DNA of 64,000 nt. Source: Aureispira sp. CCB-E (lineage in GTDB: Bacteria > Bacteroidota > Bacteroidia > Chitinophagales > Saprospiraceae). The notes beneath the pieces are model-generated. The model saw nothing but the letters and a program-made list of their open reading frames with translations, was not told where the DNA came from and ran no database searches. Where the stretch lies: contig NZ_CP133671.1 in assembly GCF_031326345.1 (NCBI RefSeq), forward strand, positions 4,774,001 through 4,838,000, read 5' to 3'. Position numbers and translations under genes: made by a program. Shown in pieces: positions 441-37,010 of this stretch (its first letter is position 1; the number at the start of each line of letters is the position of its first letter).

Positions 441-460
441 AAGTGTAAAAAGTGATGCTT

Positions 461-518
461 CAATAGTTAGCTGCGAAGCTAATCACCGACCACGAAGTAG
501 CAGCGTAGCTAACTACGA
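461..518. mobile_element. MITE-like inverted-repeat element, copy a
   Basis: A 58 bp palindromic element begins 20 bases after the arsC stop. Its arms are TAGTTAGCT (464-472) and AGCTAACTA (507-515), and it contains the family core in reverse orientation (CCACGAAGTAGCAGCG, 490-505). The 6 bp direct repeat ATGCTT lies immediately on both sides (455-460 and 519-524), as expected of a target-site duplication. Its position just after a stop codon also lets the hairpin act as a terminator for arsC. Confidence 0.8.
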
Positions 519-654
519 ATGCTTGTAACCTTCAAATATGTTGTAGATTCCCAATATTAACATTGACCTCCCCACATTTGCATATCTCTTGTTTTAAAAC
601 AAACAATAAATGTGCATCTAACCTTTATTTATTGACTAAAGTCGTGCTCCATCA

Positions 655-1791
655 ATGCAACACCACAACCATACCAAGCCTAAAATATATGGCGATCACC
701 AAGTTCGAGAAGCCATTCAAGAATTATTTAGTTATGAGGATTTTCTGGCAGGAATGAAAGCGTTTGTACCTCCTCAACTAAACAAATTAATATTAGACGA
801 AAAAGATACTGTTCAAAGTGCTGATGATTTTCAAAAAAAGGTGATTCGCCCTTTTTTAAAAACGGTTGCACAGAGCAGCATTAGCAATTTTACGTTTAGT
901 GGTACAGAACATTTATCCCCATCCAAAAGCTATTTGTTTGTTTCCAATCATCGAGATATTGTCTTAGATTCTGCTTATTTAAATATGGTTCTACTAGAAC
1001 AAGGTATGCGGACAAGTCAAATTGCCATTGGAGATAATTTAGTTGCCAACCGTTTGACAGAATTGCTATTCAAAATAAATAAAAGCTTTGTTGTTAAACG
1101 TTCTGGTAATCCTAGAGAAATTTACAACCATGCCGTGATTCTTTCTCAATATATCAAAGAAACACTTACAAAGGAAAAAGACTCTGTTTGGATTGCACAA
1201 CGGGAAGGGCGCGCCAAAGATGGCAATGACAAGACTCAAATTTCTTTGCTAAAAATGTTGAGTCTTTCTAGCAAAGACAACCTCGTAGAACATTTTAAAT
1301 CACTCAACATCACTCCTGTCTCAATTTCTTATGAATACGACCCTTGTGGCTATCTAAAAACGAAGGAGTATTTAAAGAAAAAGAAAGATCCTAATTACAA
1401 AAAAGTGTTTCATGATGATGCGCAACATTTGTTGTTGGGTATAAAGGGACATAAAGGTCATGTTCATTTTCATTTTGAAAAGCCACTCCACAAACGTCTT
1501 GATGCTCTGTATGAAGCCCCCAACCAAAAAGGAATGTTACTTAATTTGGCTGGCATAATAGACAAAGCCATTCATCTCAACTACCAATTGCACCCCATCA
1601 ACTACTACGCCTACGATCAACTTTTGAACTCGACTAATTACTCCTCAAAATATGCTCCTACCCAAGCTTCTTTAAAAGAGTTTTTTGATATGCTTATTGA
1701 AATGCTTCCTCTTGAAGAACAAACAGAAGGTCGGGAATTTATGCTTAAAATATATGCCAATCCTCTAAGCAATAAATTGAGTTATGGTTAA
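655..1791 (+). CDS. PlsC-like glycerophosphate acyltransferase family protein
   Basis: This 378-residue protein resembles membrane-associated 1-acylglycerol-3-phosphate acyltransferases, which move an acyl chain onto a glycerol phosphate backbone. The catalytic block is FVSNHRDIVLDSAYL near residue 100, and a second conserved block is WIAQREGRAKDGND, matching the EGxRS-type motif. The catalytic pair is unusual: the histidine is followed by aspartates at +2 and +6, not by the standard HX4D. There is no signal peptide or clear transmembrane helix. The gene stands alone, with no lipid genes beside it. The family is fairly sure, the acyl donor and acceptor are not. Confidence 0.75.
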   Translation: MQHHNHTKPKIYGDHQVREAIQELFSYEDFLAGMKAFVPPQLNKLILDEKDTVQSADDFQKKVIRPFLKTVAQSSISNFTFSGTEHLSPSKSYLFVSNHRDIVLDSAYLNMVLLEQGMRTSQIAIGDNLVANRLTELLFKINKSFVVKRSGNPREIYNHAVILSQYIKETLTKEKDSVWIAQREGRAKDGNDKTQISLLKMLSLSSKDNLVEHFKSLNITPVSISYEYDPCGYLKTKEYLKKKKDPNYKKVFHDDAQHLLLGIKGHKGHVHFHFEKPLHKRLDALYEAPNQKGMLLNLAGIIDKAIHLNYQLHPINYYAYDQLLNSTNYSSKYAPTQASLKEFFDMLIEMLPLEEQTEGREFMLKIYANPLSNKLSYG

Positions 1792-2093
1792 TCAATAGTA
1801 TCAACAGGTTATTACTTCTAGAACAATTACTTTTGTTACTAGCCACGAGTTGTGTTGTGACTACATCGTACTTATTATTTGCGGCTTGCTTGTTTATAAG
1901 TCTACAAAATGGCTTAAAAAACGTCTAAGAGGCAATTAATTTTTTGTTTAAAAAAATCGTTTATTATTCTTATCTTACACGTCCCATTTACGAAAACATC
2001 GATAAAAAACTGAAAATCAATTGGATATCTTATTTTTTTTTCGTTTTATTGTAACACCCTAATTATTTCAAAACTCTATCTTTTTTATTACCT
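1792..2093. other. Intergenic stretch without a supported gene
   Basis: About 300 bases lie between the acyltransferase and the small Cys-rich gene. One forward frame (about 1797-1935) reads as a leucine-rich hydrophobic peptide but has no ATG, GTG or good TTG start, so I do not call it. The part before 2094 is very T-rich and probably holds the promoter of the next gene. Confidence 0.5.
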
Positions 2094-2279
2094 ATGAAAG
2101 TATTGCTATTTGTCGCTATTGTTGGTGCAATTATTTTTATCATTATTAACAACTCTCAATCCAATCAATATATCTGCGAAAGGTGTGAAGGAAAAGGTTT
2201 TTGGAGAGGATTGCGAGGTGAACGGAACAATTGTAAGGCTTGCGATGGAACAGGCTATATAGAGCACAAAAAGAGTTAG
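2094..2279 (+). CDS. Small membrane-anchored DnaJ-type zinc-motif protein
   Basis: This 61-residue protein starts with a hydrophobic helix (residues 2-19) and then has two CxxCxGxG motifs, CERCEGKG and CKACDGTG, about 16 residues apart. Such pairs form one zinc site in the cysteine-rich domain of DnaJ and in small chaperone-like proteins. The helix should anchor it in the inner membrane, but which side carries the zinc site cannot be told. No J-domain is present, so it is not DnaJ itself. It stands alone between non-coding stretches. The coding call is supported by the intact motif; the function is unknown. Confidence 0.65.
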   Translation: MKVLLFVAIVGAIIFIIINNSQSNQYICERCEGKGFWRGLRGERNNCKACDGTGYIEHKKS

Positions 2280-2483
2280 TTAAGAACTAATTTGGCAGAA
2301 TCAAGCGATACATATGGCTAAAAACAAACCTATATTGGCTAAAATAGGTCTATTCTTGGCAAGAATAAACTACTTGTTTTTTTTATTATTATATAATTTC
2401 GCTTTACTGTTTTTGTATTACGCGGTAATAAGTAATACAAATTAACTTTTAATTGATTTATTAACTTTTAATTTTCATTAATC

Positions 2484-2933
2484 ATGAAATCTTTAATGTC
2501 CCTCGCATTACTTGTTCTCTCACTTAACGTGTTTGCAATTGATGCTCCCCTTCAAGAAGAAAAAATGGTTGCGATTATTCTAATGATGGATAATGGCGAT
2601 GAACAAGAAATCATTAGCACAATCTATACTTCACTAATGGCTGCTGAAAAAGTTGCTAAGGTATTGGATATAGAATTGATCGCTGAGGATGAAGTAAACG
2701 ATGATGTTTTTGTTTTCTCTCTAAAATCACAAGAACAAAAAGAAATCGCTATTAAATTACTTGATGAAGAAGGCTATCGCGTAGCAGCTAACCGTGTCAT
2801 CAAAGTAGATAATGGCAACAACTACAATGCGCTCAATGTAAAAACATTGGAAGATGGTACTTACAAATTCTTAATTACAGACGAAAGTGGTGCTGAAAAA
2901 ACAACTACTTTGACCATCAATCGCAATAAATAA
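2484..2933 (+). CDS. Exported acidic protein of unknown function
   Basis: This protein has 149 residues with a clear signal peptide (about residues 1-18, ending NVFA). The mature part is acidic and appears to be a small alpha/beta fold: a strand VAIILMMDN, a helix SLMAAEKVAKVL, a strand DDVFVFSL and a helix EIAIKLLDEEGY, followed by a beta-rich tail. I do not recognise a named family. The alternating helix and strand order recalls small ferredoxin-like or SPOR-like domains, but no motif confirms this. It is single, with a terminator-like hairpin directly after it. Confidence 0.65.
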   Translation: MKSLMSLALLVLSLNVFAIDAPLQEEKMVAIILMMDNGDEQEIISTIYTSLMAAEKVAKVLDIELIAEDEVNDDVFVFSLKSQEQKEIAIKLLDEEGYRVAANRVIKVDNGNNYNALNVKTLEDGTYKFLITDESGAEKTTTLTINRNK

Positions 2934-2947
2934 TATATACATAAGTT

Positions 2948-2983
2948 AAGTAGTGTTTCTTAAATAAGAGGCACTACTTTTCA
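2948..2983 (+). terminator. Rho-independent terminator after 2484-2933
   Basis: The arms AAGTAGTG (2948-2955) and CACTACTT (2972-2979) pair, with a further TCTT/AAGA pairing inside, and TTTTC follows. It lies 14 bases after the stop codon. Confidence 0.6.
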
Positions 2984-3446
2984 GACTACAAGTATCCGAA
3001 AATAGTCTTTGACAAAACACTCTAGCACAACAAAAAGGCATAACTCCCCTCTTTATTTCATGCTAAGTAGGTAGTCAAAAATGACTTTACATGATTCATA
3101 AATTTTCTTCATTCTTATTACAAATCTCTACTTAAGACAAAAAGAAACCATTTTGTCTTGTACTAATATTTATTAATATCATAATAAGGATTAAGTTTTG
3201 AAAGTAGCCTACACTTCATTACTTGAATCTAAGCATTGCTATTGCATTGGTCTAACAGTATATTCAACTAACTGATGTTATTTGACTCCAATACTGTAGT
3301 AGGGAACTAATGTCAAAAAGTGAGAAAGGATTGAAAATCTAACCTGAATCTATCAAAAATTGGTTGCAAAGTGTATTTATTCTTAATCTAAGCTTCCACA
3401 TCAAAGCCCTATTTTTTGACAAACAATACAACAAACAGATAACCTT
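2984..3446. other. Gene-free stretch
   Basis: About 460 bases hold no open frame longer than a few codons on the forward strand, and the reverse frame at 3401-3592 is a shadow of the next gene. The stretch is AT-rich and shows no repeat that I could match elsewhere in the window. It probably contains the promoter of 3447-4019. Confidence 0.4.
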
Positions 3447-4019
3447 ATGAAAAATTTACCGATCCTAATTCTTCTTATATTTCTTTTGAATACATCCTTT
3501 TTACAAGGGCAAAACTTGATTAAAAACAGCAAATTTAATTCGGGTGTTGAACACTGGGAAGTTTTGCTAGCGGATAAAGGGATTCCTATCAAAGCACAAG
3601 TAATTGAACACAGTCAATTTCCAGATTTATATGGGTTGGCGGATAATTATATCAATACAAACTTTGTAGAGTTGGATGCTACTTCTGCTATTCAACAGAA
3701 AATAAATACTGATAAATCAGATAACTATACCTTAATCTTTGCCTACGCATTACGTCCTGATGCCGGTGACAAGCAGTTAGTTATTACAGCTAATGGAACT
3801 GTAATTCATACAGAAACCATGAAAAATAGTTCCTCGGTTGGCACATTCAAATACCACAATATCTATTTTAATGCTCCAGATCATATTACAAAGCTTAGCT
3901 TTTATGCTGTTTCTTTGAGTGGTCCTGATGATCAAGGCATTTTATTAACAGATATTACTTGTGAAAAAACGGCAGAGATTAACATTAACTACCCTAAAAA
4001 CGGAAGCAAAACGCACTAG
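3447..4019 (+). CDS. Exported protein with a carbohydrate-binding-like beta-sandwich
   Basis: This 190-residue protein starts with a signal peptide (about residues 1-21, ending FLQGQ). The mature part opens with NLIKNSKFNSGVEHWEV, a start typical of beta-sandwich modules of the DUF642/CBM type found on secreted bacterial proteins. The middle has alternating strands (NYTLIFAYALRPD, KQLVITANGTVIHTE), and LSFYAVSLSGPDDQGILLTDI is like the last strands of such a sandwich. There is no catalytic motif and no type IX tail. It may bind sugars or cell-surface material, but this rests on fold resemblance only. A strong hairpin follows. Confidence 0.65.
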   Translation: MKNLPILILLIFLLNTSFLQGQNLIKNSKFNSGVEHWEVLLADKGIPIKAQVIEHSQFPDLYGLADNYINTNFVELDATSAIQQKINTDKSDNYTLIFAYALRPDAGDKQLVITANGTVIHTETMKNSSSVGTFKYHNIYFNAPDHITKLSFYAVSLSGPDDQGILLTDITCEKTAEININYPKNGSKTH

Positions 4020-4045
4020 TCTACAAGTCCTTACATTAACATTAT

Positions 4046-4084
4046 CAAACAATAGTTTTACCTCCAATCCCCAACTATTGTTTG
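4046..4084 (+). terminator. Hairpin terminator after 3447-4019
   Basis: There is a perfect 12 bp stem, CAAACAATAGTT (4046-4057) with AACTATTGTTTG (4073-4084), around a 15-base loop. It is followed by a T-rich stretch and starts 26 bases after the stop codon. Confidence 0.7.
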
Positions 4085-4183
4085 ATTTGTTAAACTTAAA
4101 TATTCCTTGTTATTGATTCATTCAATAACTCATTTCTTTCATATTCAAAATATTATTTTATCATCCTTTATCCCCCGACTATT

Positions 4184-5293
4184 ATGAAAAATTACATTGC
4201 GATACTTACGATTTCCTTGGGCATTCTATTAAGTCTCTCTGCCTGCCAAAAAGTAGAAGATCAGACTTATACAATTCCAACAACATATAATTTTGAAAAT
4301 GTTGATTACAGTGGTCAAACGACTCGAATTAAGATGCTAGAAGCGTTATCTATTTATGCTAAATCAGCCAATACACTAGGTTCTAACCAACTGAGTTCTA
4401 CAGCGATGATTAATATGTACAACAATGCCAATACTGTATTTTCTGATCCCGCTTTAAATAATTCTAGCAAACAATTAAAAAACAAAGTTCATTTATCCAT
4501 TCAAAACAAGTTTGAAAACTACATGGTTGCTCAAGCTAATGCTAGCCTAAGTACCAATCAAACAGCTGCTGCAAATCAAGCGGGAATTGCTACTAGCAAT
4601 GATGGCACGCAAAGCTTTTTGCTTAATAACAATGGCGTCGAATTGGCACAAATAATCGAAAAAGGGCTTGCTACTGCTTGTTTCTATTACCAGTCTACTG
4701 CGGTTTATTTGGGGGAAACTAAAATGAGTGTAGACAATAAAGCGGTTACAGATGGAAAAGGTACTAATATGGAACATCACTGGGATGAAGCATTTGGTTA
4801 CTTCGGAGCACCGATTGACTTTCCTAGTAACACCTCTAATGTAGAACTTTGGGCAAAATACTCCAACAAAGTAAATTCTATCTTAGGATGCAATTCAAAA
4901 ATCATGAATGCGTTCTTAAAAGGTCGTGCTGCTATCTCGGCAGAAGACTATAATGCAAGGGACGAGGCTCGCACTACTATTAAACAAGAATGGGAAGTTA
5001 TCTTGGCTGCTGTGGCTATTTCTTATTTAAATGATGCTAAAAAGAATGCTACCGATTTTGCCCTTTATGCTCATTACCTAACAGAAGCATACGCTTTTAT
5101 TGCTGGGCTAAAATACGGTGCTTCTAAAACCATTCCTGATGCAGATGTTGATAACATCTTATCCAACTTAGCAGGAAGTTCAGATCCTCTACAAGCTAAT
5201 ATTTATGCTACTTCACTGCAAGATATCGACAATACAATCAATGCTCTCGCTAACTCATTTACTAGTTTAGAAACCGTAAAAGCAAGCCTTTAA
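4184..5293 (+). CDS. DUF4856 (imelysin-like) lipoprotein
   Basis: This 369-residue lipoprotein has a lipobox LSAC with the lipidated cysteine at residue 21. It then reads TYNFENVDYSGQTTRIKMLEAL, the opening of the Bacteroidota DUF4856 family, and a conserved block MEHHWDEAFGYFGAP in the middle. The rest is mostly helical. The family is related to imelysin-like periplasmic or surface proteins that are linked to iron uptake. The TonB-dependent receptor directly downstream supports a surface partner role in metal uptake. No Fur box was identified by eye. Family membership is fairly firm; the metal is an inference. Confidence 0.82.
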   Translation: MKNYIAILTISLGILLSLSACQKVEDQTYTIPTTYNFENVDYSGQTTRIKMLEALSIYAKSANTLGSNQLSSTAMINMYNNANTVFSDPALNNSSKQLKNKVHLSIQNKFENYMVAQANASLSTNQTAAANQAGIATSNDGTQSFLLNNNGVELAQIIEKGLATACFYYQSTAVYLGETKMSVDNKAVTDGKGTNMEHHWDEAFGYFGAPIDFPSNTSNVELWAKYSNKVNSILGCNSKIMNAFLKGRAAISAEDYNARDEARTTIKQEWEVILAAVAISYLNDAKKNATDFALYAHYLTEAYAFIAGLKYGASKTIPDADVDNILSNLAGSSDPLQANIYATSLQDIDNTINALANSFTSLETVKASL

Positions 5294-5320
5294 GTTTGCT
5301 AAATGTGTTGACAACTAGAT

Positions 5321-5366
5321 AGAAGGACAAAACAAGTGATTTTTTTATGACTGCTTTTGTTCTTCT
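5321..5366 (+). terminator. Hairpin between DUF4856 gene and TonB receptor
   Basis: AGAAGGACAAAA (5321-5332) pairs with TTTTGTTCTTCT (5355-5366) with a single G-U pair, and the loop contains a run of seven T. It may end or attenuate transcription between the two genes, which would let the lipoprotein be made in excess over the receptor. Confidence 0.45.
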
Positions 5367-5467
5367 ACTTGTAAGTGAAGAAACTCTACTTTTATAAACG
5401 TTGGTTTTCTATTGCACAATCCTCCAATAATTCCAATAGAACTAACAACATTAGTCTCATTTTAACA

Positions 5468-8059: not shown

Positions 8060-8080
8060 AGTTGTATCGTTTTAATATTA

Positions 8081-8118: not shown

Positions 8119-8121
8119 ATT

Positions 8122-9024
8122 TTATTGTCCAACTTTAATCAGTTCAATTTCAAAAATTAAAATGGAATTTGGAGGAATATTTCCTGTTTTCTTATTGCCA
8201 TATCCCAAATAAGGTGGAATATATGCTCTAATCTTTTCCCCTTCTTCCATCAAAGGAATTACTTCTTGCCACCCTTTGATTACGCCTGTTAATTTGAACG
8301 TAATTGGCTTGCCTTTTTGTACAGAACTATCAAAGACTTTTCCATTGATCAATGTACCATGGTAATGCACTGTAATCAGTTCTTTTGAGTTATTACTAAC
8401 CTGCTTACCACTTCCTTCCTTTAAGATTTCATATTGAATTCCACTCTCTAGTGCAATAACACCTGGTTTGGTTTTATTTTTTTTCAGAAACTGTTTATTA
8501 ATGTGCTGTTGATCTTGAGCCTCCATTTCTTTAATAGCCTTAAATTTAAGACTCACTTCTTTTTGTGCTTCTTCTACACTAAACAATGCCGTGTTAGAAA
8601 ATACTGCCAAGATACCTTGCTTAAAATCTTCTTGACCTACTGAACTAAAATCAATCTTAAAGGTTTTCCAATTGGCACCAATTACAATTCCATAATTGTA
8701 ATAAAAATCACTTAAGGAAGCTTTTGTCAATTGAGACAAATCTCCTGTATTTTGCAGTTCAATCGTTTTGGCTTTGGTCATTTTTTGAGCAGCCACCTCT
8801 GTTATCTTTGATTGACCAGTCATAAAAGCTTCTATCCCACTCCAGAGTTTGTCTACAATTATCAAGTCTTTTGACAAACCAATATCTTGGAAATTGGTTC
8901 CTGCTAATACGCCACAACTATACGCAAAACGATCTGTAATAATCTCCTTGGAGTTTTGCCCATTGCTTGTTTGACAAAAGCCAAGCAAGAAGAATATTCC
9001 TAGCAAAAAATTAAATCTTTTCAT
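8122..9024 (-). CDS. Exported FKBP-type peptidyl-prolyl isomerase (Mip/FkpA-like)
   Basis: This 300-residue protein catalyses cis-trans isomerisation of prolyl bonds in exported proteins. It has a signal peptide (to about residue 23, TSNGQ), an FKBP_N-type helical dimerisation region (about 30-180, containing FAYSCGVLAGTNF and DFYYNYGIVIGANW) and a C-terminal FKBP domain (about 195-300). The FKBP domain shows VHYHGTLINGKVFDSS, GVIKGWQEVIPLM, YGNKKTGNIPPNSILIFEIEL, the usual pocket residues. It should be periplasmic. The next FKBP gene upstream has the same domain without the export region, so the two are paralogues. A shared terminator follows. Confidence 0.9.
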   Translation of the reverse strand: MKRFNFLLGIFFLLGFCQTSNGQNSKEIITDRFAYSCGVLAGTNFQDIGLSKDLIIVDKLWSGIEAFMTGQSKITEVAAQKMTKAKTIELQNTGDLSQLTKASLSDFYYNYGIVIGANWKTFKIDFSSVGQEDFKQGILAVFSNTALFSVEEAQKEVSLKFKAIKEMEAQDQQHINKQFLKKNKTKPGVIALESGIQYEILKEGSGKQVSNNSKELITVHYHGTLINGKVFDSSVQKGKPITFKLTGVIKGWQEVIPLMEEGEKIRAYIPPYLGYGNKKTGNIPPNSILIFEIELIKVGQ

Positions 9025-9085
9025 AAATATTTGTTTTATACTTCACGTCCTGACCATTGCCTATTTTAGACTGAGTATTATTATT

Positions 9086-9212
9086 TAGTAGTTCGTTGAT
9101 TACTTCGTGAGCGCTACGCTTTTAGTTAGCTTCGCTGCTACTGCGTGGTATTTTATGAGATCGCTTCGCTTAGTTACCTGCGCTGCTACTTCGTGGTTTC
9201 AACGAACTATTG
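9086..9212. mobile_element. MITE-like inverted-repeat element, copy b
   Basis: This 127 bp element has arms TAGTTCGTTGA (9089-9099) and TCAACGAACTA (9199-9209), a perfect 11 bp inverted pair, and two forward copies of the family core, near 9132 and 9182. The direct repeat ATTATT abuts both ends (9080-9085 and 9213-9218). The right repeat includes the TAA stop of the leftward FKBP gene. The inner part from about 9130 to 9195 is nearly identical to the reverse strand of copy d. Confidence 0.85.
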
Positions 9213-9213
9213 A

Positions 9214-9645
9214 TTATTTTCCTATTGCAATTAATTCTAATTCGAATATCAAAATAGAGTTGCTAGGAATTTTACCTTCTTGACGATCCCCGTACCCCAT
9301 ACTTGGAGGCACAACAAGACGCCACTTATCACCAGCAACCATTAACGGGACAACTTCTTGCCAAGCTTGAATCAAATTATTTAATTTAAACGTAGCTGTT
9401 TTTTTCCTATCTACAGAACTATCAAAAACCTTTCCATCAATGAGCGCACCATGATAATGCACAGTTACCCAATCTTTTACACTAGGACTTACTTTACCAA
9501 ATCCTTCCTCCAAAACTTCGTATTGAATTCCGTTATCCAATACTGTTACCGTTTCTTTTTGTGCATTTTCTGCTAAAAAAGCTTCGTTTTGAGCTTTTCT
9601 TTTTGCTGCTAATTTGCGTTTAAACGCTTCCATTTTTTCACTCAT
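9214..9645 (-). CDS. Cytosolic FKBP-type peptidyl-prolyl isomerase
   Basis: This 143-residue protein is read from the ATG at 9645 (MSEKMEAFKRKLAAKRK). It has a charged N-terminal helix of about 25 residues and one FKBP domain with VHYHGALIDGKVFDSS, LIQAWQEVVPLM, MGYGDRQEGKIPSNSILIF. No signal peptide is present from this start, so it should act in the cytosol as a folding helper. An upstream ATG at 9708 would add a hydrophobic stretch (MIEFLLSAFFNSIDIII), but that segment has no positive charge and no export cleavage site, so I prefer 9645. It is close in sequence to the exported FKBP at 8122-9024. Repeat copy b ends at its stop codon. Confidence 0.85.
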   Translation of the reverse strand: MSEKMEAFKRKLAAKRKAQNEAFLAENAQKETVTVLDNGIQYEVLEEGFGKVSPSVKDWVTVHYHGALIDGKVFDSSVDRKKTATFKLNNLIQAWQEVVPLMVAGDKWRLVVPPSMGYGDRQEGKIPSNSILIFELELIAIGK

Positions 9646-9752
9646 ACTGCTACTACTAATAATAATGTCAATAGAATTAAAAAAAGCGCTTAACAGAAAT
9701 TCTATCAAGCACTTTTTAATTTATAGTATTCAATACATAAGATCTGCTTTAG

Positions 9753-17841: not shown

Positions 17842-18156
17842 TAATACTCCGTTGATTGCCTGCGGTGCTACTTCGTGGTAGCTCCCTGTGGTCGTGAGGG
17901 CACAAGCTTAGTTTTTTAGTTTTCAAGAAACCCGTAGGCTCACGAAGTAAAAACATAAAAAATTACCTTGCATTAAATTGATTATCAAACCTTTAGCACA
18001 AAGAGCAAGAAAGAGATATATCTTATTAATAATCAACTGCGAAGCACTCATGCAATACCACGTAGTAGCAGCGTAGCTAAACTAATACGATTTACTGCGT
18101 GAGCGCTTTGCTTTTAGTTAGCTGCGCTGCTACTGCTTGGTTTCAACGGAGTAATG
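17842..18156. mobile_element. MITE-like inverted-repeat element, copy c (inside a gene end)
   Basis: This 315 bp element has arms TACTCCGTTGA (17845-17855) and TCAACGGAGTA (18143-18153). It contains CCTGCGGTGC to GCTCCCTG (17859-17888), 30 bases identical to the reverse strand of copy d (20554-20583), and an inner TTGATTATCAA. The direct repeat AATTAA abuts both ends (17836-17841 and 18157-18162). Its right end encodes the last eight residues and the stop of the lipoprotein gene 18130-18675. Removing it with one repeat copy restores codons for Leu-Ile-Gln-Ser-Phe-Asn-stop. Confidence 0.88.
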
Positions 18157-18720: not shown

Positions 18721-19272
18721 TTACAAGTGAACTTCCTGTTGATAAATACTGCTGGTAAAAATAGGAATAAATAAAATAGCAGCCTTGGTAGAAGCATCTA
18801 AGTTAGTCCAATCACCTTCCAGTTCCCATCGATCCCAATCTTCTGAACTAGAGGTTCTAAATGTTGCTTCAAAATCACCTGAAACTTGCCAATGATCCCA
18901 GTTATTAGAAGAATAGGTTCGAACTCGAAAAGTTTGACTATTTCCCCTAATCTCCCAATTATCCCAATCGTTAGAAGAATACGTTCGTATCGTAAAAAGA
19001 CCATTATCCAACCGCCAATTGTCCCAGTCTTCTGTGCTTGCCGTTTTAATACTCCCCGATTGTCCTTCCAAGTCATACCGCCAATTGTCCCAATCTTCTG
19101 AACTATTGGTTCGAAAACGTCCTGTTGTCCCTTCCAAAAAAAGCTGCCAATTATCCCAGTCTTCTGGACTATTCGTTTGAAGCCGATCCGACGGTTCTAT
19201 GAAGTTACTTGCATTGGGTTGGCAACTAAACAACAAACTCGTTGCTAAAATAATAGTTAAAAGTGATTTCAT
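18721..19272 (-). CDS. Lipoprotein with six tandem DWDNW repeats
   Basis: This is a 183-residue lipoprotein with lipobox LFSC (Cys17). Residues 31-155 are six tandem repeats of 20-22 residues of the pattern FRTxSSEDWDNWxLxG; the first Trp of each falls at 39, 61, 83, 103, 125 and 146. Each unit should give two short strands joined by an acidic-aromatic turn, so a small solenoid or propeller-like surface is likely. The C-terminal 28 residues include a hydrophobic stretch AAILFIPIFTSSIY. No named family is known to me. It begins 3 bases after the 19276-20148 gene and precedes another lipoprotein gene, so they form an operon. Confidence 0.75.
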   Translation of the reverse strand: MKSLLTIILATSLLFSCQPNASNFIEPSDRLQTNSPEDWDNWQLFLEGTTGRFRTNSSEDWDNWRYDLEGQSGSIKTASTEDWDNWRLDNGLFTIRTYSSNDWDNWEIRGNSQTFRVRTYSSNNWDHWQVSGDFEATFRTSSSEDWDRWELEGDWTNLDASTKAAILFIPIFTSSIYQQEVHL

Positions 19273-20341: not shown

Positions 20342-20650
20342 TAGTAGTTAGCTACGCTGCTACTTCGTGGTCGTTGATTAAAACGACCTTGGATTTAACA
20401 TTACTTCGTAAAAAAATCACATCAATTTGATTATCAATAGAATACACTTTTATTACTTGATTTATTAAAGAATTGATAATCAAACTGATGCAAAGATACT
20501 TTTTTAGTTTTTCACAAAAAAGCTAAAAAACTAAGCTTGCGCTCTCACGACCGCAGGGAGCTACCACGAAGTAGCACCGCAGGTAACTAAGCGAAGCGAT
20601 CTCATAAAATACCACGCAGTAGCAGCGAAGCTAATCCACGAAGTACTAAT
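20342..20650. mobile_element. MITE-like inverted-repeat element, copy d
   Basis: This 309 bp element starts TAGTAGTTAGCT, like copies f and h, and carries three core units (near 20356 forward; 20562 and 20611 reverse). Its centre has two inverted TTGATTATCAA/TTGATAATCAA stretches. The direct repeat TTAAAT abuts both ends (20336-20341 and 20651-20656). It lies between the divergent tail-anchored gene and the ECF sigma gene, so it occupies their shared promoter region. Confidence 0.82.
20491..20498 (-). promoter_or_regulatory. -7-like box inside element d
   Basis: The reverse strand reads TATCTTTG, followed by CATC, matching TAnnTTTG. It points toward the 19276-20148 gene, with about 340 bases between them. 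A TTTG lies upstream on that strand, but the spacing is shorter than usual, so this is only a candidate. Confidence 0.3.
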
Positions 20651-21707: not shown

Positions 21708-21875
21708 TAGTAGTTCGTTGATTTTTTACTTTTTCACCAAAAAGATAAAAAAGCACATTTATATTAGCTTGATAATCAAAATTTTAAAATAAAATGCAGC
21801 AAATTTGTAACTTTTTGATTATCAAACTAATAAAGTTTAGCTTCGCTGCTACTGCGTGGTTTCAACGAACTATTG
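21708..21875. mobile_element. MITE-like inverted-repeat element, copy e
   Basis: This 168 bp element has arms TAGTTCGTTGA (21711-21721) and TCAACGAACTA (21862-21872), identical to those of copy b. The inside holds TTGATAATCAA and TTGATTATCAA, and one core unit near 21844. The direct repeat ATATCTT (7 bp) abuts both ends (21701-21707 and 21876-21882). It lies 30 bases after the ECF41 gene stop and separates it from the membrane gene at 21987. Confidence 0.87.
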
Positions 21876-28201: not shown

Positions 28202-28268
28202 TAGTAGTTAGCTACACTGCTACTTCGTAGTCGTTGAAACCACGTAGTAACAGCAAAGCTAACTATTG
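28202..28268. mobile_element. MITE-like inverted-repeat element, copy f
   Basis: This 67 bp element has arms TAGTTAGCT (28205-28213) and AGCTAACTA (28257-28265), and a diverged core in each orientation (CACTGCTACTTCGTAG; CCACGTAGTAACAGC). The 7 bp direct repeat ACTGAAG abuts both ends (28195-28201 and 28269-28275). It lies 46 bases past the stop of the leftward cytochrome c gene. Confidence 0.85.
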
Positions 28269-28725: not shown

Positions 28726-28805
28726 ATTTATATTTTCTACTCACCATAGCATTTCGTTCAAAAATCTTCCATCACAGCACCAACACCAAATCGTTAAATT
28801 ACGAC

Positions 28806-29444: not shown

Positions 29445-29550
29445 ATTTTTATAATATTAATTATTGTAATAAAATCTAGGTTCTGTATGCCTGATTAACA
29501 TCAACAGCCAGCTGCTACAACGAGTTATTCTGGCACTTTCTTTGGAAACG

Positions 29551-29558
29551 CAAAGATA
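29551..29558 (-). promoter_or_regulatory. -7 box for the SCO1-cytochrome c pair
   Basis: The reverse strand reads TATCTTTG, followed by CG. This is a strong match to TAnnTTTG and lies 107 bases before the SCO1 start. Confidence 0.55.
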
Positions 29559-29688
29559 AGGAATTAAAGAAAAAATAAATTATAGAAATTCGTTTTGATC
29601 TCAAGAAATCTTATTCAGAATAATTTCAAATTACAGCACAATTCAACAGTCACTATCATTTACTCTTAATGAGTGTTTTAACTTAGTT

Positions 29689-30759: not shown

Positions 30760-30793
30760 TTTGTAAATTTATGTTTGTGATACAAATCCGCAG

Positions 30794-30801
30794 CAAAACT
30801 A
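30794..30801 (-). promoter_or_regulatory. -7 box for the CoA transferase gene
   Basis: The reverse strand reads TAGTTTTG, followed by CTGC, a match to TAnnTTTG 35 bases before the start at 30759. Confidence 0.5.
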
Positions 30802-30829
30802 TGGAAAAATATACAATTCTTTATATTAG

Positions 30830-30852
30830 GAGTACTTAGCTGCGCTGCTACC
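30830..30852. repeat. Fragment of the inverted-repeat family
   Basis: AGTACTTAGCTGCGCTGCTACC matches the end and half core of the family and then diverges. No opposing arm or direct repeats are seen, so it looks like a decayed or partial copy. Confidence 0.45.
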
Positions 30853-30914
30853 TTATTTTTAAGGGATAAGTCTCTAAAATTTCATAAATTTGAAAAACAC
30901 AAGCTTAGTATGTT

Positions 30915-31364
30915 ATGAATATGAAAAACCACTATAAAGAAAAATTTTGGGACTATGATAATGATCAACTTAAAGATATTATCGCAGGACGTTTTAGAGA
31001 AGCCTCTGACGACGAAGTAGCTGCTGCAATAGAACTACTCCAAGAACGTCAACATCAATACAACCAATCCAATCTATCTCTGGCAGAAATTCCAAATGCT
31101 TCTATGCCTGCTCTATTGGAAATTGTTAAAAATCCGAACATTTGGGGAAGTGCTGCTGTTGAAATTGCAGAAGCTGAAATTTTGCGCCGAGAACATCAGC
31201 CCTTGGAGGAAAAAACACCTGACAATGGAAAAAAAACAATTCTACAAATCGTTTTAATGGTACTAGGTGTTATTGTTTCAGTACTTTTACTAAAATTGAT
31301 TGCTGGGATTGTATTAATTTGCTTTTTCTTCTATTGTGTCATTTCTTGCTTAAATGGCTTGTAA
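30915..31364 (+). CDS. Small membrane protein of unknown function
   Basis: This 149-residue protein has a charged helical N-terminus (KEKFWDYDNDQLKDIIAG, EASDDEVAAAIELLQERQ) and another helix pair around residues 50-85. Two closely spaced hydrophobic segments at the end (about 112-145) make a hairpin or single anchor. Either of two ATG codons (30915 or 30921) could start it. The first region resembles short adaptor-like helical repeats but no family is recognised. The next gene on the strand, a LolD-type ATPase, starts 109 bases later. Confidence 0.6.
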   Translation: MNMKNHYKEKFWDYDNDQLKDIIAGRFREASDDEVAAAIELLQERQHQYNQSNLSLAEIPNASMPALLEIVKNPNIWGSAAVEIAEAEILRREHQPLEEKTPDNGKKTILQIVLMVLGVIVSVLLLKLIAGIVLICFFFYCVISCLNGL

Positions 31365-31473
31365 GAACAATAAAAAAACAAATGCTTAAAACAAGTTTTG
31401 TAGTACATAAAAAATAACCTACTTTTAAGGTTTACACTGTCTACACACTATTGCTATTGACGAAAATAATTAA

Positions 31474-32142
31474 ATGATACACGCAAAAGACATAAAAAAA
31501 ACTTACGACAACCTTACCGTTCTCAAAGGGGTGGATCTTGAAATTAAAAAGGGAGAAATTGTTTCTATAGTTGGGAAATCTGGTGCTGGGAAAAGTACTT
31601 TGTTGCACATCTTGGGTACGCTTGATAGACAAGACTCTGGCGTTTTGACTATCAATGGCAAGGACATTAGCCAACTACCTGAAAAAGAACTCTCTGCATT
31701 TCGAAATCAACACATTGGCTTTGTCTTTCAATTTCATCATTTATTACCAGAATTCAATGCCTTAGAAAATGTCTGTATCCCTGCTTATATTCAGAAAAAA
31801 TCTGAAAAGGAAGCAGTGGCACGTGCCACACAATTATTGTCTGACTTAGGTCTCAAGGATCGATTGCACCACAAGCCATCCCAACTTTCTGGAGGAGAAC
31901 AACAGCGAGTTGCTGTCGCTCGTGCTATGATGAACAACCCTGCTGTTATTTTGGCGGATGAACCTTCAGGGAATTTGGACACTGAGACCTCTCAACAATT
32001 ACACGAACTTTTTTTTGATTTGCGAGATAAGCATCAACAAACATTTATTATTGTCACACACAATACTGAATTGGCAAAAATGAGTGATCGTACCTTGGTT
32101 ATGAAAGATGGGGTGATTATTGACGACCAAATTAACAGCTAA
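31474..32142 (+). CDS. lolD: LolD-like lipoprotein-release or MacB-type ABC ATPase
   Basis: This is a 222-residue ATPase subunit with Walker A (GKSGAGKST), the family-typical [15 protein letters not shown], signature [15 protein letters not shown] and Walker [13 protein letters not shown]. This set belongs to the LolD/MacB/FtsE branch, and the name LolD fits best by length and the Q-loop sequence. It works with a permease (LolC/E-type) that is not adjacent here, as is common in Bacteroidota. It precedes the endonuclease V gene by 8 bases, so the two are probably co-transcribed without a shared role. Confidence 0.85.
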
Positions 32143-32150
32143 ATTAATTT

Positions 32151-32831
32151 ATGGATTTAGACTTCTTACGAGATGAACAAGAATGGTTAGCCAAACAAGT
32201 CGTAATTTCAACCAATGATCGAATGTTTGACGCCTCGGATGTCTTATTTGGTGTAGATATTCAATATGTAAAAGAAGAAGCTTTTTGTGCTATTGCAGCC
32301 TATCAATTTAATGGCACTCATTTAGATACCTTTATTTTTAAAACACAAACAGGCATGGAGTATGTTTCTGGCTTTTTCTGTTTTAGAGAAGGACCTCCTG
32401 TTCTTAGAACCATCCGAAAAATCTTAGCAACTAAAAATTTAATTCCTCAACTAATCATTATTGATGGGCATGGAATTGCGCACCCTAGAAAGTTAGGTAT
32501 TGCCAGCTGGATTGGAGTTAAAACCAATATACCTAGTATAGGTGTTGCTAAAAGACCGCTTCTAAAATACGATGGAGAACTGGGACTAGAACGCGGATCA
32601 ACACTTCCCATCTTCCGAAAAGGGCAAGAAGTTGGCAGCGTTTTGAGAACTCAAACTGATATTAAACCTGTTTATGTTAGTCCTGGTTATAAAATGTCTT
32701 TAACACAGTCCAATCAAATTATTTTAGATTGTTCGCCTACTTATCGTATTTCAGAGCCCATACGACTTGCAGATCAGGTGGCAAGAGTATTTGCCAAAGG
32801 CAAAAAGATGCCAAATGTAACGATTCTATAA
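32151..32831 (+). CDS. nfi: Endonuclease V (deoxyinosine repair)
   Basis: This 226-residue enzyme cuts DNA one base past deoxyinosine. The metal site is complete: Asp36 in FGVDIQYV, Glu80 in CFREGPPVL, Asp105 in IIDGHGIAHPRKLGIASW. SIGVAKRPLLK gives the conserved lysine in the next strand. The length and order are standard. It has no signal peptide and acts in the cytosol. It lies 8 bases after the LolD-like gene, a tight operon. Confidence 0.92.
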   Translation: MDLDFLRDEQEWLAKQVVISTNDRMFDASDVLFGVDIQYVKEEAFCAIAAYQFNGTHLDTFIFKTQTGMEYVSGFFCFREGPPVLRTIRKILATKNLIPQLIIIDGHGIAHPRKLGIASWIGVKTNIPSIGVAKRPLLKYDGELGLERGSTLPIFRKGQEVGSVLRTQTDIKPVYVSPGYKMSLTQSNQIILDCSPTYRISEPIRLADQVARVFAKGKKMPNVTIL

Positions 32832-32865
32832 CTTAAAGCTGTATAAAGTTTTTTGCTATAAAATA

Positions 32866-33414
32866 TCAACTAGAACTGTTTTGTTTGTAAGCTTCTTTCC
32901 TTATTTTATACCAATTATAAGCTCCGCCATCCCCCTCATAATCATCTACCTTATAAAAGGTTAAGCCCAATTTTAACAAGACTTTATTAGAAGCTATGTT
33001 TTCAGGCATAGCAATACCGATGATTTGCGGAAGCTCCAAAACATCAAAGCCATAGTTGATAATCTTTTGAGAAGCTTCTGTAGCAATCCCCTTGCCCCAA
33101 TATTCGGGTAAAAAACGAAACCCAATATCTGTCTCGTTCATGCTCTTTAGATATTTGAGACCGGCAAAACCAATTAGTTTATTATCTGGCTTGTAAACAA
33201 CTGCCCATCTGCCATAACCATAAGTTTGATAATCGGTAAGCCAAACGTTTTGAATCAGCGCTTTTGCTGCTTCTAACGAAGCAATTAAGCCATCTCCTGT
33301 ATACTTTTGTACCTCCGCATTCGAACCAAATTCGTAAACGGCTGCATCATCTTCGACTCGAAATGGTCTGATAATAAGACGACTAGTTTCTATCCCTGTA
33401 AATGCTTCTTTCAT
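32866..33414 (-). CDS. GNAT family N-acetyltransferase (RimJ/RimL-like)
   Basis: This 182-residue acetyltransferase has ETSRLIIRPFRVEDDAAVYEF at the start, the usual opening of the RimJ/RimL group. GFRFLPEYWGKGIATEASQKII holds the acetyl-CoA pyrophosphate loop, and MPENIASNKVLLKLGLTF is the last conserved block. Members acetylate protein N-termini or small molecules, and the substrate cannot be predicted. It is single, divided from the next leftward gene by a strong hairpin. Confidence 0.85.
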   Translation of the reverse strand: MKEAFTGIETSRLIIRPFRVEDDAAVYEFGSNAEVQKYTGDGLIASLEAAKALIQNVWLTDYQTYGYGRWAVVYKPDNKLIGFAGLKYLKSMNETDIGFRFLPEYWGKGIATEASQKIINYGFDVLELPQIIGIAMPENIASNKVLLKLGLTFYKVDDYEGDGGAYNWYKIRKEAYKQNSSS

Positions 33415-33450
33415 GCTTTATGTTTTGGAATGTTTTATCAGCAATTGATT

Positions 33451-33483
33451 GTTTTGGGGGAACTGTTCTTATTCCCCCAAAAC
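33451..33483 (-). terminator. Terminator after the esterase gene
   Basis: GTTTTGGGGGAA (33451-33462) and TTCCCCCAAAAC (33472-33483) form a 12 bp GC-rich stem around a 9-base loop. It starts 1 base after the esterase stop on the reverse strand. Confidence 0.8.
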
Positions 33484-33484
33484 A

Positions 33485-34327
33485 TTACTCTTTTTCCTTT
33501 ACTTTTTCAAATATACTTTCAAATGCCTTATAAACAGCTAAATGCAGTGCATCTCCATGATCCTGTGCTTCTAAAAATTCAAAAAATGTTTTTGTATTTT
33601 TTTTGTCTAAGACACTCACTTTTTTGTACAATTCCTTAGCAGTTCCTTCCATTACTTTTCCTTCTTTTCCCACGGCTATGTAAATCGACTTTGAAGTCGT
33701 ATAGGTTGGTAAATTCCAAGATAGTAAAGATTGGTCATCCCACCACAAACTAGGACTAACAATAATATAATTGTCAAATAAGTTAGGTTGCTTAAATAAT
33801 ATTTCTGTTGCCAAAAGCCCTCCTAATGATTGCCCTATCAAAGTTTTGGTATCATTAATAGCATATTCTTTTGCAATGAATGGCTGCAACTCTTTTGCTA
33901 TAAAACGAATAAATTTCTCTGATCCACCCGTTGTTGGAAAATCTTTCTTGTCTTTTTCATTATTAGTAGGATAAGTAAAATCTCGTTTTCGGTCTACATT
34001 CCCAATACCAACAACTATCGTTTCAGGTAGTAAGTTAATCCACGAGAAGGAGCCAAATTGTACCAAACCTGCAATATGAATAAAATCTTCGTCAATGGAA
34101 CCATCTAATAGGTAAATGACAGGATACGTTTTAGAAGATTCTTTAGAATAGCCATTGGGAAGATAGATGTTTAGCACTCGATTTTCGCCCAAGATAGCAG
34201 ACTCTACTTCAAGCGTCTCTCCTATCGTAAATGCTGTTTTGCTTTTGATGTTTAATGTCTTTTGTGCAGCTAAAAAAGAGCTGCTTAGCAACAAAAGCAT
34301 CCATAAGGTTAACTGGTGTAATTGCAT
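33485..34327 (-). CDS. Exported alpha/beta hydrolase of the esterase D / IroE type
   Basis: This is a 280-residue secreted hydrolase. It has a signal peptide (to about FLAAQ) and the opening of the family ENRVLNIYLPNGYSKES, then KTYPVIYLLDG, the nucleophile elbow LIGQSLGGLLA with Ser167, and the likely catalytic His257 in EAQDHGDALHLAV. Members cleave siderophore esters, S-formylglutathione or acyl esters; the signal peptide favours periplasmic or outer-membrane action. It has its own terminator and ends close to the GNAT gene. Confidence 0.85.
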   Translation of the reverse strand: MQLHQLTLWMLLLLSSSFLAAQKTLNIKSKTAFTIGETLEVESAILGENRVLNIYLPNGYSKESSKTYPVIYLLDGSIDEDFIHIAGLVQFGSFSWINLLPETIVVGIGNVDRKRDFTYPTNNEKDKKDFPTTGGSEKFIRFIAKELQPFIAKEYAINDTKTLIGQSLGGLLATEILFKQPNLFDNYIIVSPSLWWDDQSLLSWNLPTYTTSKSIYIAVGKEGKVMEGTAKELYKKVSVLDKKNTKTFFEFLEAQDHGDALHLAVYKAFESIFEKVKEKE

Positions 34328-34422
34328 TGTATTTTAATTTTAAATATTAAAAAATCAACAACAATATAAAACATCTTACTCTATCTCAATAATGATTATT
34401 ACAACATTTTTGAATACAATAA

Positions 34423-36633
34423 CTATTCTTTTTCAATCAACTCAATTGCCTTTTCCAACAATTCATCCTTGCCATTTCTAATTCCCTTTATGGTCGGCAG
34501 TACTTCTACATCAGGTACAATACCAATACGCTGTGTTTCTGCTCCATTGGGATAATAAACCCCTATGCCCGAAATCATTGTACTTAGCCCACCAGGTAAA
34601 AGAATTTTAGAAACATTTCCATCGGCTCCCGCTGTTGTACTCCCAACAATTGTTGTATTGTGTCCTGCTCTAAATGCCATTGCCGTGTACTCTGCCTGAC
34701 TTTGAGACAACTCATTGACTAAGACGACTACTTTTCCTCCATAGAGGTCTCCAGAAGCAGGAATACTCAACGGACTAGTGTATGTAAATTCACCAGGATT
34801 ATTGACATTCCCTTTTGTAAATTTCACAAAAGGGGTTGGGCTTGATACCAAATAAGACCCTAGCAAAAAAGGAACAAATGTAGATGGATAATTTCTAATA
34901 TCAATAACCACCCCTTTGGTGTGTGCAAACAAATTTTTGATCGCCTCTATATCTTCAGATTGAATGGTTGCCAACGTAATATAACCAATCTCATCGCTCA
35001 GCAACTTGTAACACTTGCCTTCCTTTTTTCGATACCAAGCATAATAATTCAATGACTTAGGGTCATATAAAGTCAACATCTTGGTACTTACTTTTCCATC
35101 TTGTTCGTATTCTATTTTCACCTTTTGGTCATTAGAACGTAAAATATCTCTTGAAATATCTCTCAAACGAGTAGGTTGATTAGACGCAGGATAATAAGGT
35201 GCCTTTTCTTTAACAAGAGCTTCAACGGGTGTTCCATTTATTTTAGTAATAACGGCTCCTATATTCAGTCCTACGGATGCTTTGTGTTCTAAATTATAAT
35301 AATCTACGACGACTAATTGATTCTCAATAAATCGAGTATGAATAGGAGGGTAATACTTTCCCTTCCATTCCATAATTTTATTATTGCCTCCCCAAAGATT
35401 GGCATGTGTGTCTTGAATATCGCCAATCATTTGCACAGCTGCCAACTCATATTCCAATTCATCTTGTGCCTCAATAAATTTAGGAATGTATGTTTTCAAA
35501 GCTTCATTCCAGTCTTTATCCATTAAATGCTTGTAAGGGAAGTAGTAATGAATCATATTCCAATACTTAAAAGCGGCTAATAGCCGAAAGCCAGTATCGG
35601 GGTAAGGCATATTTTCATAAGCATTTTCGTGCAAAAATTTAGGATTGCCAACTCCTACTGCCATTTCCACATAATAATTTTCACCTTGGTGCCGATTCTT
35701 GTAAATCTCTTCTAATTTTTTTTGTAGTTTTTTGCCTATACTAGAGTCGTGCACCCAAGCCAAATCTGGTTTGAGCAAAGCATCCGTTTCTGTTGAAGCA
35801 CAATCGTTACAAGTTTTTAGACCACCATATTTTGATAGCCATTTGAGCAGGTAACGATCCCGCATTCTATCATCGGTTATGTTCAAGTACTGCGGCAACA
35901 TACGGAACAACTCAAAATCCCAATTATAATTTCCTTTGGCTACTTTAGGATGATGGTATTTCATTAACCCCCAAATACGCCCTAACAATTCTAAATTAGC
36001 AACATTTTGTTCGTTGATAACAATGGACGTTATTGCTGACCCTTTAATAAACTCTTTGTCTAAAGCAGCTGGTAAGCGTTTCCTTTTTACCTCTTTTAAT
36101 GTTTGCACATCCTCGCCATCAATTGTCAATACAAAATCATCAAACCAAGCTTCCCCTTGTCCAACAAGAATGCCTGCTACAAAAATCTGTTCTCCTTCTT
36201 CTGGATAAGGCAATTCGATACTATATTTTTTCCAATCCTTTGTCCCCTTAATTCCTTGGCTTTGCATATTATCAAAAGCCAAACTCGTTCCATTTCCGTC
36301 AATTCTCAACAGCAATCCCGCAAATCCATCGGCAACATTCTTTATTTTCATAAATCCTTCTAACTTAATCTTCTTCCCTTCGTATTTGGCTGGAATATGA
36401 TAAGCTATTGAACCAAAATTCAAATCGCTTTCTGTAGACACAATCTTTGCGGCATAATTACCTGAATATCCTTTTTCACTAACCCCCAACTGATAATCGC
36501 CCCATTGAAGCCATCCATCAGGCAATGGTTTATCTGTTGTTTTTTTCTCAAAATTCAAATTAAACTTAGCGCTATCTTGACCATACGCACTTAGGCAAAT
36601 CAAATGGAATAGTATCCAACAAAAATTTTTCAT
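34423..36633 (-). CDS. S41 family peptidase (C-terminal processing protease-like)
   Basis: This 736-residue exported protease is read from the ATG at 36633 (MKNFCWILFHLICLSAYGQ, a signal peptide); an upstream ATG at 36690 would hide it. Residues 25-190 form a beta-sandwich that may bind carbohydrate or protein (FNLNFEKKTTDKPLPDGWLQ). A helical region follows, then a PDZ-like part (GAVITKINGTPVEALVKEK). The S41 catalytic domain shows IGYITLATIQ, GVVIDIRNYP and the nucleophile serine in NELSQSQAEYTAMAFRAG. It is much longer than CtpA and resembles Bacteroidota S41 surface proteases with a tricorn-like layout. Confidence 0.85.
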   Translation of the reverse strand: MKNFCWILFHLICLSAYGQDSAKFNLNFEKKTTDKPLPDGWLQWGDYQLGVSEKGYSGNYAAKIVSTESDLNFGSIAYHIPAKYEGKKIKLEGFMKIKNVADGFAGLLLRIDGNGTSLAFDNMQSQGIKGTKDWKKYSIELPYPEEGEQIFVAGILVGQGEAWFDDFVLTIDGEDVQTLKEVKRKRLPAALDKEFIKGSAITSIVINEQNVANLELLGRIWGLMKYHHPKVAKGNYNWDFELFRMLPQYLNITDDRMRDRYLLKWLSKYGGLKTCNDCASTETDALLKPDLAWVHDSSIGKKLQKKLEEIYKNRHQGENYYVEMAVGVGNPKFLHENAYENMPYPDTGFRLLAAFKYWNMIHYYFPYKHLMDKDWNEALKTYIPKFIEAQDELEYELAAVQMIGDIQDTHANLWGGNNKIMEWKGKYYPPIHTRFIENQLVVVDYYNLEHKASVGLNIGAVITKINGTPVEALVKEKAPYYPASNQPTRLRDISRDILRSNDQKVKIEYEQDGKVSTKMLTLYDPKSLNYYAWYRKKEGKCYKLLSDEIGYITLATIQSEDIEAIKNLFAHTKGVVIDIRNYPSTFVPFLLGSYLVSSPTPFVKFTKGNVNNPGEFTYTSPLSIPASGDLYGGKVVVLVNELSQSQAEYTAMAFRAGHNTTIVGSTTAGADGNVSKILLPGGLSTMISGIGVYYPNGAETQRIGIVPDVEVLPTIKGIRNGKDELLEKAIELIEKE

Positions 36634-37010
36634 GCTTACTTTTTTTAGGTTATAACAATCCATCAACAACTTTTTCTCTGCAATAATCAACCAATTATAA
36701 GGCTAATGATTAGGCGTAAAGTGCCACCTTAATTTATAGATGATATAATTGATAGTAGTTAGCTACGCTGCTACTTCGTGGTCGTTGATTAGTATTGATT
36801 GAGGAATTGAATTATTATACATAGATAATTGAACAATTGGTTGCATCGTTGAGGGAGATGCTTGTTTTTGTAAAACAATATGGGGTCACATGATAGATAT
36901 ATTCCCCAAAAGCAAACAGGTTATCACTTTTTAAAAAAATTTCTTCTTTACCAATAGAATAGCTTTACACTAGAGAAATCTAAATCAATTATTTGTGCAA
37001 CTAAAAACAC
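36634..37010. other. Gene-free stretch with element copy h
   Basis: This 377-base region between the S41 start and the CorA stop contains repeat copy h (36753-36797) and otherwise no supported frame. It includes the expected leader of the S41 gene. Confidence 0.5.
36753..36797. mobile_element. MITE-like inverted-repeat element, copy h (short)
   Basis: This 45 bp form starts TAGTAGTTAGCTACG, has one core unit (GCTGCTACTTCGTGG) and ends with GTATTG. The opposing arm is missing. A 5 bp direct repeat ATTGA abuts both ends (36748-36752 and 36798-36802), weaker support than in the other copies. The start up to GTCGTTGATTA is identical to the beginning of copy d. Confidence 0.6.

Follow-up and report, generated by a model that had tools for sequence, protein, structure and literature searches.

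Introduction

The small dispersed repeats (SDRs) of cyanobacteria, which range from about 20 to 27 nt, were reportedly found by Elhai et al. in 2008 to be nested in minitransposons and in each other. The available parts of two sources portray SDRs as dispersed, possibly mobile repeats of about 20 nt (PMC2884548), one of which, SDR5, is precisely inserted inside HIP1 (PMC4390886). They appear to be the closest known things to the 22-nt units described here, which occur in a family of miniature inverted-repeat transposable elements (MITEs) of Aureispira sp. CCB-E, a member of the Bacteroidota. The stretch analysed, called the window throughout, comprises 64,000 nt (positions 4,774,001 to 4,838,000 of contig NZ_CP133671.1). 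Like SDRs, the principal unit, M1, is about 20 nt long, dispersed and precisely inserted within other repeats; unlike them, it belongs to another phylum, has T^T as its target (the caret marks the insertion point), is identical across many genera and shows clean presence/absence between strains, the two being set apart here by description, not by sequence. Two properties of very small mobile repeats are seen in M1, namely a unit length with fixed ends (22 nt) and a position inside other mobile repeats of which filled and empty copies exist. The 22-nt unit is a further kind of the very small mobile repeat known from cyanobacteria, with direct strain differences and carriers in several orders.

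Other described repeats offer partial parallels. Bacterial MITEs and mosaic repeats of the BOX/RUP type are short, with terminal inverted repeats, target duplications and a modular interior; unlike them, the Aureispira MITE would have modules that are themselves mobile and also occur outside it, and its minimal copy is 32 bp. Repetitive extragenic palindromic (REP) sequences and REPINs resemble M1 in being short, intergenic, hairpin-like and high in copy number, and M1 differs from those served by REP-associated tyrosine transposases (RAYTs) in its very short possible stems, its precise insertion into other repeats and the lack of a detectable Y1 transposase in CCB-E or its close relative CCB-QB1. 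BrickBuilt of Porphyromonas gingivalis is, as far as the available part of its description goes, likewise a Bacteroidota MITE with short internal repeats and sites filled or empty between strains; its 23-nt repeats are tandem and internal, its target site duplication (TSD) is 4 nt and its ends match IS5-family elements (PMC4596501). The BrickBuilt 23-nt consensus is unrelated to M1 and, in that part of PMC4596501, is not described as a separate mobile unit. Among the literature matches listed on small mobile repeats, Bacteroidetes MITEs and mosaic repeats, no title or abstract opening described such units in Bacteroidota, PMC4596501 coming nearest, and none of four core strings occurred in the papers searched, a coverage outside which most subscription papers fall.

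Results

M1 is a unit of exact length

M1, TAGCTDCGCTGCTACTNCGTGG, is a separate unit of 22 nt that inserts at T^T and leaves no measurable duplication. A 22-nt core pattern has 224 + 226 = 450 matches at ≤3 mismatches in the CCB-E genome (G000; 7.39 Mb, 99.93% complete), and the reversed control has none. At ≤4 substitutions, a T stands before 97 and after 94 of 101 cores. When exactly 22 nt were excised in the sampled genome, the resulting 8+8-nt join was found elsewhere for 27, 32, 18 and 1 of the 101 cores at shifts of 0, +1, +2 and +3, respectively, and for none at any other shift from -8 to +8; excision of the wrong size (20, 21, 23 or 24 nt) gave highest counts of 0, 2, 6 and 1 at any shift. 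Because runs of T at the boundary make shifts 0, +1 and +2 near-equivalent frames, a duplication of a single T could still accompany insertion.

The lengths of inserts between paralogous sequences (12+12-nt joins, 8-79 nt) peak at 22 nt, with 28 cases of which 26 are recognisable units and two are not. The next lengths are 48 (14 cases), 68 (13), 26 (11), 46 (10) and 38 nt (9), some of the longer ones being sums such as 22+26, and no insert measures 13-18 nt. The units come in lengths of 20, 22 and 26 nt; a 36-nt unit appeared a single time, in a clean difference between the strains. Genes are avoided: only 4 of 96 M1 copies fall in open reading frames (ORFs) of ≥150 aa, though such ORFs cover 80% of the sequence. 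Among 127 copies, 97 have paralogous sequence spanning the site, 28 have a similar flank on one side and two have neither, so the units reside in repeats, either because they prefer them or because they are tolerated there.

A conserved gene or RNA as the source of the core was set aside, the core at ≤1 mismatch being confined to its own genome among 395 of the phylum. A known RNA family was likewise rejected as the identity of the repeats (no Rfam match over the gathering score in the window), as was carriage by viruses (no exact core match in a viral contig set, exact matches only being considered).

Two strains differ by single units

Aureispira sp. CCB-QB1 is ~99.4% identical to CCB-E, and its contig 43 is collinear with a region that includes the window and extends past it, at an identity of about 99-99.6%. 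Three chains spanning 908 kb of the two genomes, of which about 886 kb aligned, gave 587 indel entries before filtering, replaced segments included; the 143 indels kept as clean are anchor gaps explained by a single indel with few mismatches. By size, 75 are of 1 nt, 15 of 4-16 nt, none of 17-19 nt, two of 20 nt, one of 21 nt and six of 22 nt. All six 22-nt indels (CCB-E positions 4795824, 4971640, 5018858, 5027965, 1035925 and 2680183) are M1, its variant M1' or the sister unit M3, and both 20-nt indels are one further unit. M1', in which the stem pair 4-10 of a possible hairpin is swapped from G-C to C-G, accounts for 14 of 146 copies and is also held by a 26-nt strain difference at 4909893, where the host sequence changes alongside. 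The indel at 2680183 (an M1' unit) and a 182-nt insertion at 4925473 sit in a second MITE-like family. These strain differences probably arose by insertion rather than by loss.

Filled and empty sites in other genera

A scan of named genomes with a pattern that required T flanks gave at least 120 core-bearing stretches, a lower bound on the carriers, mostly from Aureispira records; judging by the names in record titles, we take all the carrier stretches listed to be Bacteroidota. At ≤2 mismatches, 17 non-Aureispira Bacteroidota genomes picked from the scan matches, and thus holding at least one copy by choice, have 1-41 copies each. Within Aureispira, the same threshold gives 190 copies in G001, 75 in G003 and 130 in G006, with none in G002, G004, G005 and G007. 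Single core matches were found in G043 and G087. At ≤1 mismatch the core occurs in only one of 395 sampled genomes of the phylum, that of CCB-E itself, so its distribution is rare and patchy. One 22-nt unit, M1, is common to several orders of Bacteroidota. A pattern for the sister units M2 and M3 with an AGTT flank is present in CCB-E and CCB-QB1 and in none of the 17 genomes of other genera, and only M1 is therefore known to be widespread.

The flanks of nine loci, joined as if the 22 nt were missing, served as queries against nine genomes, and 21 of the 30 loci fetched by this search were aligned. At seven of the nine query loci, the host repeat has empty copies that lack exactly the 22 nt and are contiguous across the insertion point. 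Such copies were found in Dive96 (G498), Neolewinella antarctica (G500), Lewinella ANT-68 (G490), GEM2.Bin22 (G505) and CSSed10_172R1 (G497), and those of Faecalibacter rhinopitheci (G502) have diverged and contain further gaps. The seventh host repeat, that of C10_concoct (G506), is filled in its own genome and empty in G492, this locus (L132) being the one with empty copies in another genome only. Relative to the join, the aligned filled copies hold exactly 22 additional nt, placed at T^T.

In L074, L097, L115, L130 and L133, M1 lies in similar longer contexts, in several metagenome-assembled genomes labelled Flavobacteriales, Chitinophaga or Lishizhenia.

The host MITE and the features of the window

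The two ends of the MITE differ, one being TAxTA and the other CAxTA; its terminal stem is 14 bp long and its TSD 5-7 bp, mostly 6 bp. Its end sequences are TAATACTCCGTTGA and TAGTAGTTCGTTGA, the latter being the unfilled end. In a sample of 1.386 Mb of the CCB-E genome, 119 elements were paired automatically from fuzzy matches to the terminal inverted repeats (TIRs), the search demanding that each end begin with T or C without asking that the two differ. An exact abutting repeat flanks 57 of the 119 (5 bp, n=10; 6 bp, n=35; 7 bp, n=12), whereas 500 shuffles of the right flanks gave 1.28 on average and never more than 5; all 57 combine one TA end with one CA end. Among the 62 elements without a flanking repeat that passes the exact test, some may have mutated repeats or have been wrongly paired. 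The TSDs are 86% AT, compared with 64% for the sequence read. TSD-bearing elements measure 32-373 bp, lengths that make a MITE without coding capacity likely; the smallest is a bare 32-bp hairpin, and a 32-bp TSD-bearing copy at 1134233-1134264 has no M1 core. A 152-nt insertion at 5007160, TSD TTATAAT included, is exactly absent from CCB-QB1, which provides a precise empty site, and a 234-nt copy at 4916666 is present in CCB-QB1 only, with a less clear duplication. The MITE layer is ordinary in kind.

The window contains the following features, in window coordinates:

461-518, minus strand: MITE copy 1, TSD ATGCTT; right end mutated (ACTACGA), same sequence in CCB-QB1 (L139)
490-511, minus strand: 22-nt unit M1 in copy 1
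9086-9212, plus strand: MITE copy 2, TSD ATTATT
9101-9126, plus strand: 26-nt unit M2, its length taken from paralogous insert lengths
9127-9148, plus strand: 22-nt unit M1
9175-9196, plus strand: 22-nt unit M1
17842-18156, plus strand: MITE copy 3, ACTCC-type ends, TSD AATTAA
17857-17878, plus strand: 22-nt unit of M1' type (hairpin 1 G-C pair swapped to C-G), one substitution
17930-17949, minus strand: 20-nt unit, polymorphic elsewhere between strains
18036-18057, minus strand: 22-nt unit M3
18058-18079, minus strand: 22-nt unit M1
18093-18118, plus strand: 26-nt unit M2
18119-18140, plus strand: 22-nt unit M1, one substitution
20342-20398, plus strand: probable older or partial MITE remnant adjoining copy 4
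20349-20370, plus strand: 22-nt unit M1
20399-20648 (genome 4794399-4794648), strand unassigned: MITE copy 4 proper, TSD ATTTAA
20564-20585, minus strand: 22-nt unit M1'
20612-20633, minus strand: 22-nt unit M1
21708-21875, plus strand: MITE copy 5, TSD ATATCTT; CCB-QB1 ortholog with two extra units, 36 nt at 21722 and 22 nt at 21824
21838-21859, plus strand: 22-nt unit M1
28202-28268, plus strand: MITE copy 6, TSD ACTGAAG, M1 in both arms; CCB-QB1 arrangement here different and larger
28209-28230, plus strand: 22-nt unit M1, two substitutions
28240-28261, minus strand: 22-nt unit M1, two substitutions
36753-36797, plus strand: MITE copy 7, TSD ATTGA
36760-36781, plus strand: 22-nt unit M1; excision leaves TAGTAGTTCGTTGA, the unfilled MITE end
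63591-63622, strand unassigned: minimal 32-bp hairpin element without units and without exact TSD

A sequence-only reading of the window had proposed at least seven copies of a transposed, non-autonomous, MITE-like inverted-repeat element with flanking duplications of 5-7 bp, united by a shared core, confined to the first 37 kb and mobilised by a transposase encoded elsewhere. This interpretation is partly supported. The seven copies and their flanking repeats were all recovered in place, and the sharing of the core is well above chance (14 window matches of a 15-nt core at ≤3 mismatches, 0.57 being expected; none of 100 shuffles reached 14). The transposed, non-autonomous nature of the elements and their target duplications are supported by the TSD statistics and the exact empty site in CCB-QB1 given above. 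The copy at 20342-20650 is present, but its extent had to be revised, as it is a composite that includes a complete element at 20399-20648 with its own TSD; and while the seven lie in the first 37 kb, the last 27 kb are not empty, given the hairpin at 63591-63622. The core does not define the family: a TSD-bearing copy lacks it, and a second repeat family contains it. That copy, together with the strain differences and the cross-genus empty sites, spoke against the core as the sequence that defines the MITE; what unites the seven copies is instead the smaller unit M1, nested in these elements and in other repeats.

Several further observations concern the MITEs and their surroundings. A 43-bp hairpin at genome position 917464-917506 shares its outermost ends with the MITE and carries a 6-bp TSD but has another inner stem, and recognition may thus need the outer bases only. 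The second MITE-like family, of 160 bp, has ends TAAGTAATCG and CCACTTACTTA and is found at 5043296, 1102411 and 4925473; its unfilled form is polymorphic between strains, it is a host of M1', and a TA target duplication is possible. Copy 2 sits between two FKBP-type isomerase genes (window 8122-9708). At window 18833-19205, direct repeats with a 66-nt spacing lie within an ORF on the minus strand (18721-19272).

A possible hairpin structure

Two positions of M1 vary freely, position 6 (G, T or A) and position 17 (T, G or A), and the rest are nearly fixed; all nine A/G/T combinations of the two variable bases were observed. The variable positions are the middles of two possible TNC triloops, AGC[TDC]GCT and GCTAC[TNC]GTGGT, which read GNA on the other strand. 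Loops of the GNA class occur in very stable DNA mini-hairpins. Covariation was counted on 46 of 74 distinct variants, truncated or doubtful ones having been dropped by eye, and with relatedness uncontrolled; 96.7% of cells pair in the hairpin model, and none of 500 shuffles reaches the observed number of paired cells, number of both-side cells or covariation score. Several results count against the model: changes on both sides occur in only one of eight pairs, 425 and 171 of 500 shuffles, respectively, attain the observed number of such pairs and of additional pair types, partners slid by +3 still pair 94.3% of cells, and isolated units show no folding excess over shuffles with DNA or RNA parameters. 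The hairpin model is a lead, and the absence of a folding excess together with the weak covariation makes the hairpin step weak.

Discussion

Unit lengths are exact, and both filled and empty sites exist, whether one looks within a single genome, compares two strains or turns to other genera. We consider it probable that two nested levels of mobile DNA are present, a MITE and very small units inserted at T^T within it and within other repeats. Several results pull the other way. The sole 21-nt clean indel is not a unit. Two of the nine cross-genus loci (L238 in G492 and L209 in G494) showed only filled copies, and the empty copies of L117 are diverged, with other gaps. The seven host repeats fall by eye into about five groups, not seven: L131 and L102 have inner sequence in common, and part of the L117 segment is matched by copies of the L104 repeat. 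A similar flank exists elsewhere for 125 of the 127 M1 copies, so some of them may owe their spread to gene conversion between repeats. Finally, the searches for Y1_Tnp, RVT_1 and DDE_Tnp_1 identified no mover of the units.

The abundance of similar flanks, and the large composite difference between the strains at window 28071, would also fit a single MITE family in which the core is simply a part of the MITE and the interior has been varied by deletion, by recombination and by gene conversion from one copy to another. We regard this as unlikely, because M1 is missing from a TSD-bearing copy, the strains differ by an M1' unit within the second MITE-like family (2680183), and host repeats in other genera have copies filled and empty by 22 nt. 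If each unit were instead a scar left behind when a larger element excised, its fixed length and constant T^T context would make sense, but the nine combinations of the variable bases are not what the scar of one element predicts, and we think this very improbable, no search having been aimed at a larger parent element.

Two known kinds of enzyme could in principle carry the units, and each seems to us an improbable mover. Y1 transposases of the RAYT/IS200 type, which act without target duplication on hairpins bearing a GTAG or GTGG tag, would make the units REP-like. GTAG can be read on the reverse strand of M1 beside a tiny possible hairpin, and of 18 M1-bearing genomes (the 17 non-Aureispira genomes and CCB-QB1) 14 have a Y1_Tnp match, 13 of them over the cut-off; a match is also present in the carrier G006, as well as in the non-carrier G004. 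None was found, however, in CCB-E, in a second assembly of the same species (G510), in the carriers G001 and G003 or in CCB-QB1, on which ground this mover was rejected for Aureispira, nor in G495, G501 and G502. Moreover, M1 was not within the fetched flanks of 10 Y1 genes, among 29 Y1 matches listed, and its possible stems measure 3-5 bp, compared with 7-20 nt for REPs in the available part of PMC6006769. Copying through an RNA intermediate by a reverse transcriptase is about as doubtful. RNA intermediates have been proposed for cyanobacterial SDRs, which speaks in its favour, as do one RVT_1 protein in CCB-E (589 aa, L273:1003-2772, at about 2.39 Mb) and two in the carrier G003. Yet no RVT_1 match was found in G510 or in the carriers G001 and G006, all draft assemblies and so less than conclusive, while the non-carrier G002 has one, and reverse transcriptase was marked down as a factor common to carriers.

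For the MITE itself, the sequence-only reading had expected an insertion sequence with matching ends. The search did not bear this out: in 1.386 of 7.39 Mb, no two TIRs lying 500-4000 bp from each other were found with an exact TSD of ≥5 bp, which may set this MITE apart from other bacterial MITEs and BOX/RUP repeats, and the five DDE_Tnp_1 element groups read, which cover 29 of 42 matches, have ends unrelated to those of the MITE.

Returning to the two nested levels, the MITE would most likely have been moved by a transposase that makes a staggered cut. Units of 20, 22, 26 and 36 nt would insert at T^T inside the MITE and other repeats without measurable duplication; they may move as short, single-stranded, hairpin-like copies, which a nuclease or recombinase could place at T^T. 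Mosaic MITEs would then grow from bare 32-bp hairpins by stepwise nesting. More tentatively, and with somewhat less than even confidence, we suggest that M1 is among the smallest mobile DNA units, 22 nt that enter unrelated repeat families and are identical in several orders of Bacteroidota, and that it may be moved, along with its 20-36 nt sister units, by machinery not yet described and distinct from both Y1 transposases and reverse transcriptases, which inserts at T^T and builds complex MITEs from 32-bp hairpins.

How sequences of ~20 nt move has been an open question since the cyanobacterial SDRs were described. Strains that are ~99.4% identical and differ by clean units of 20-22 nt open their gain or loss to direct study, and the presence of M1 in distant genera supplies further cases for finding the enzyme by comparison. 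The nested units show, in addition, how mosaic MITEs can grow stepwise.

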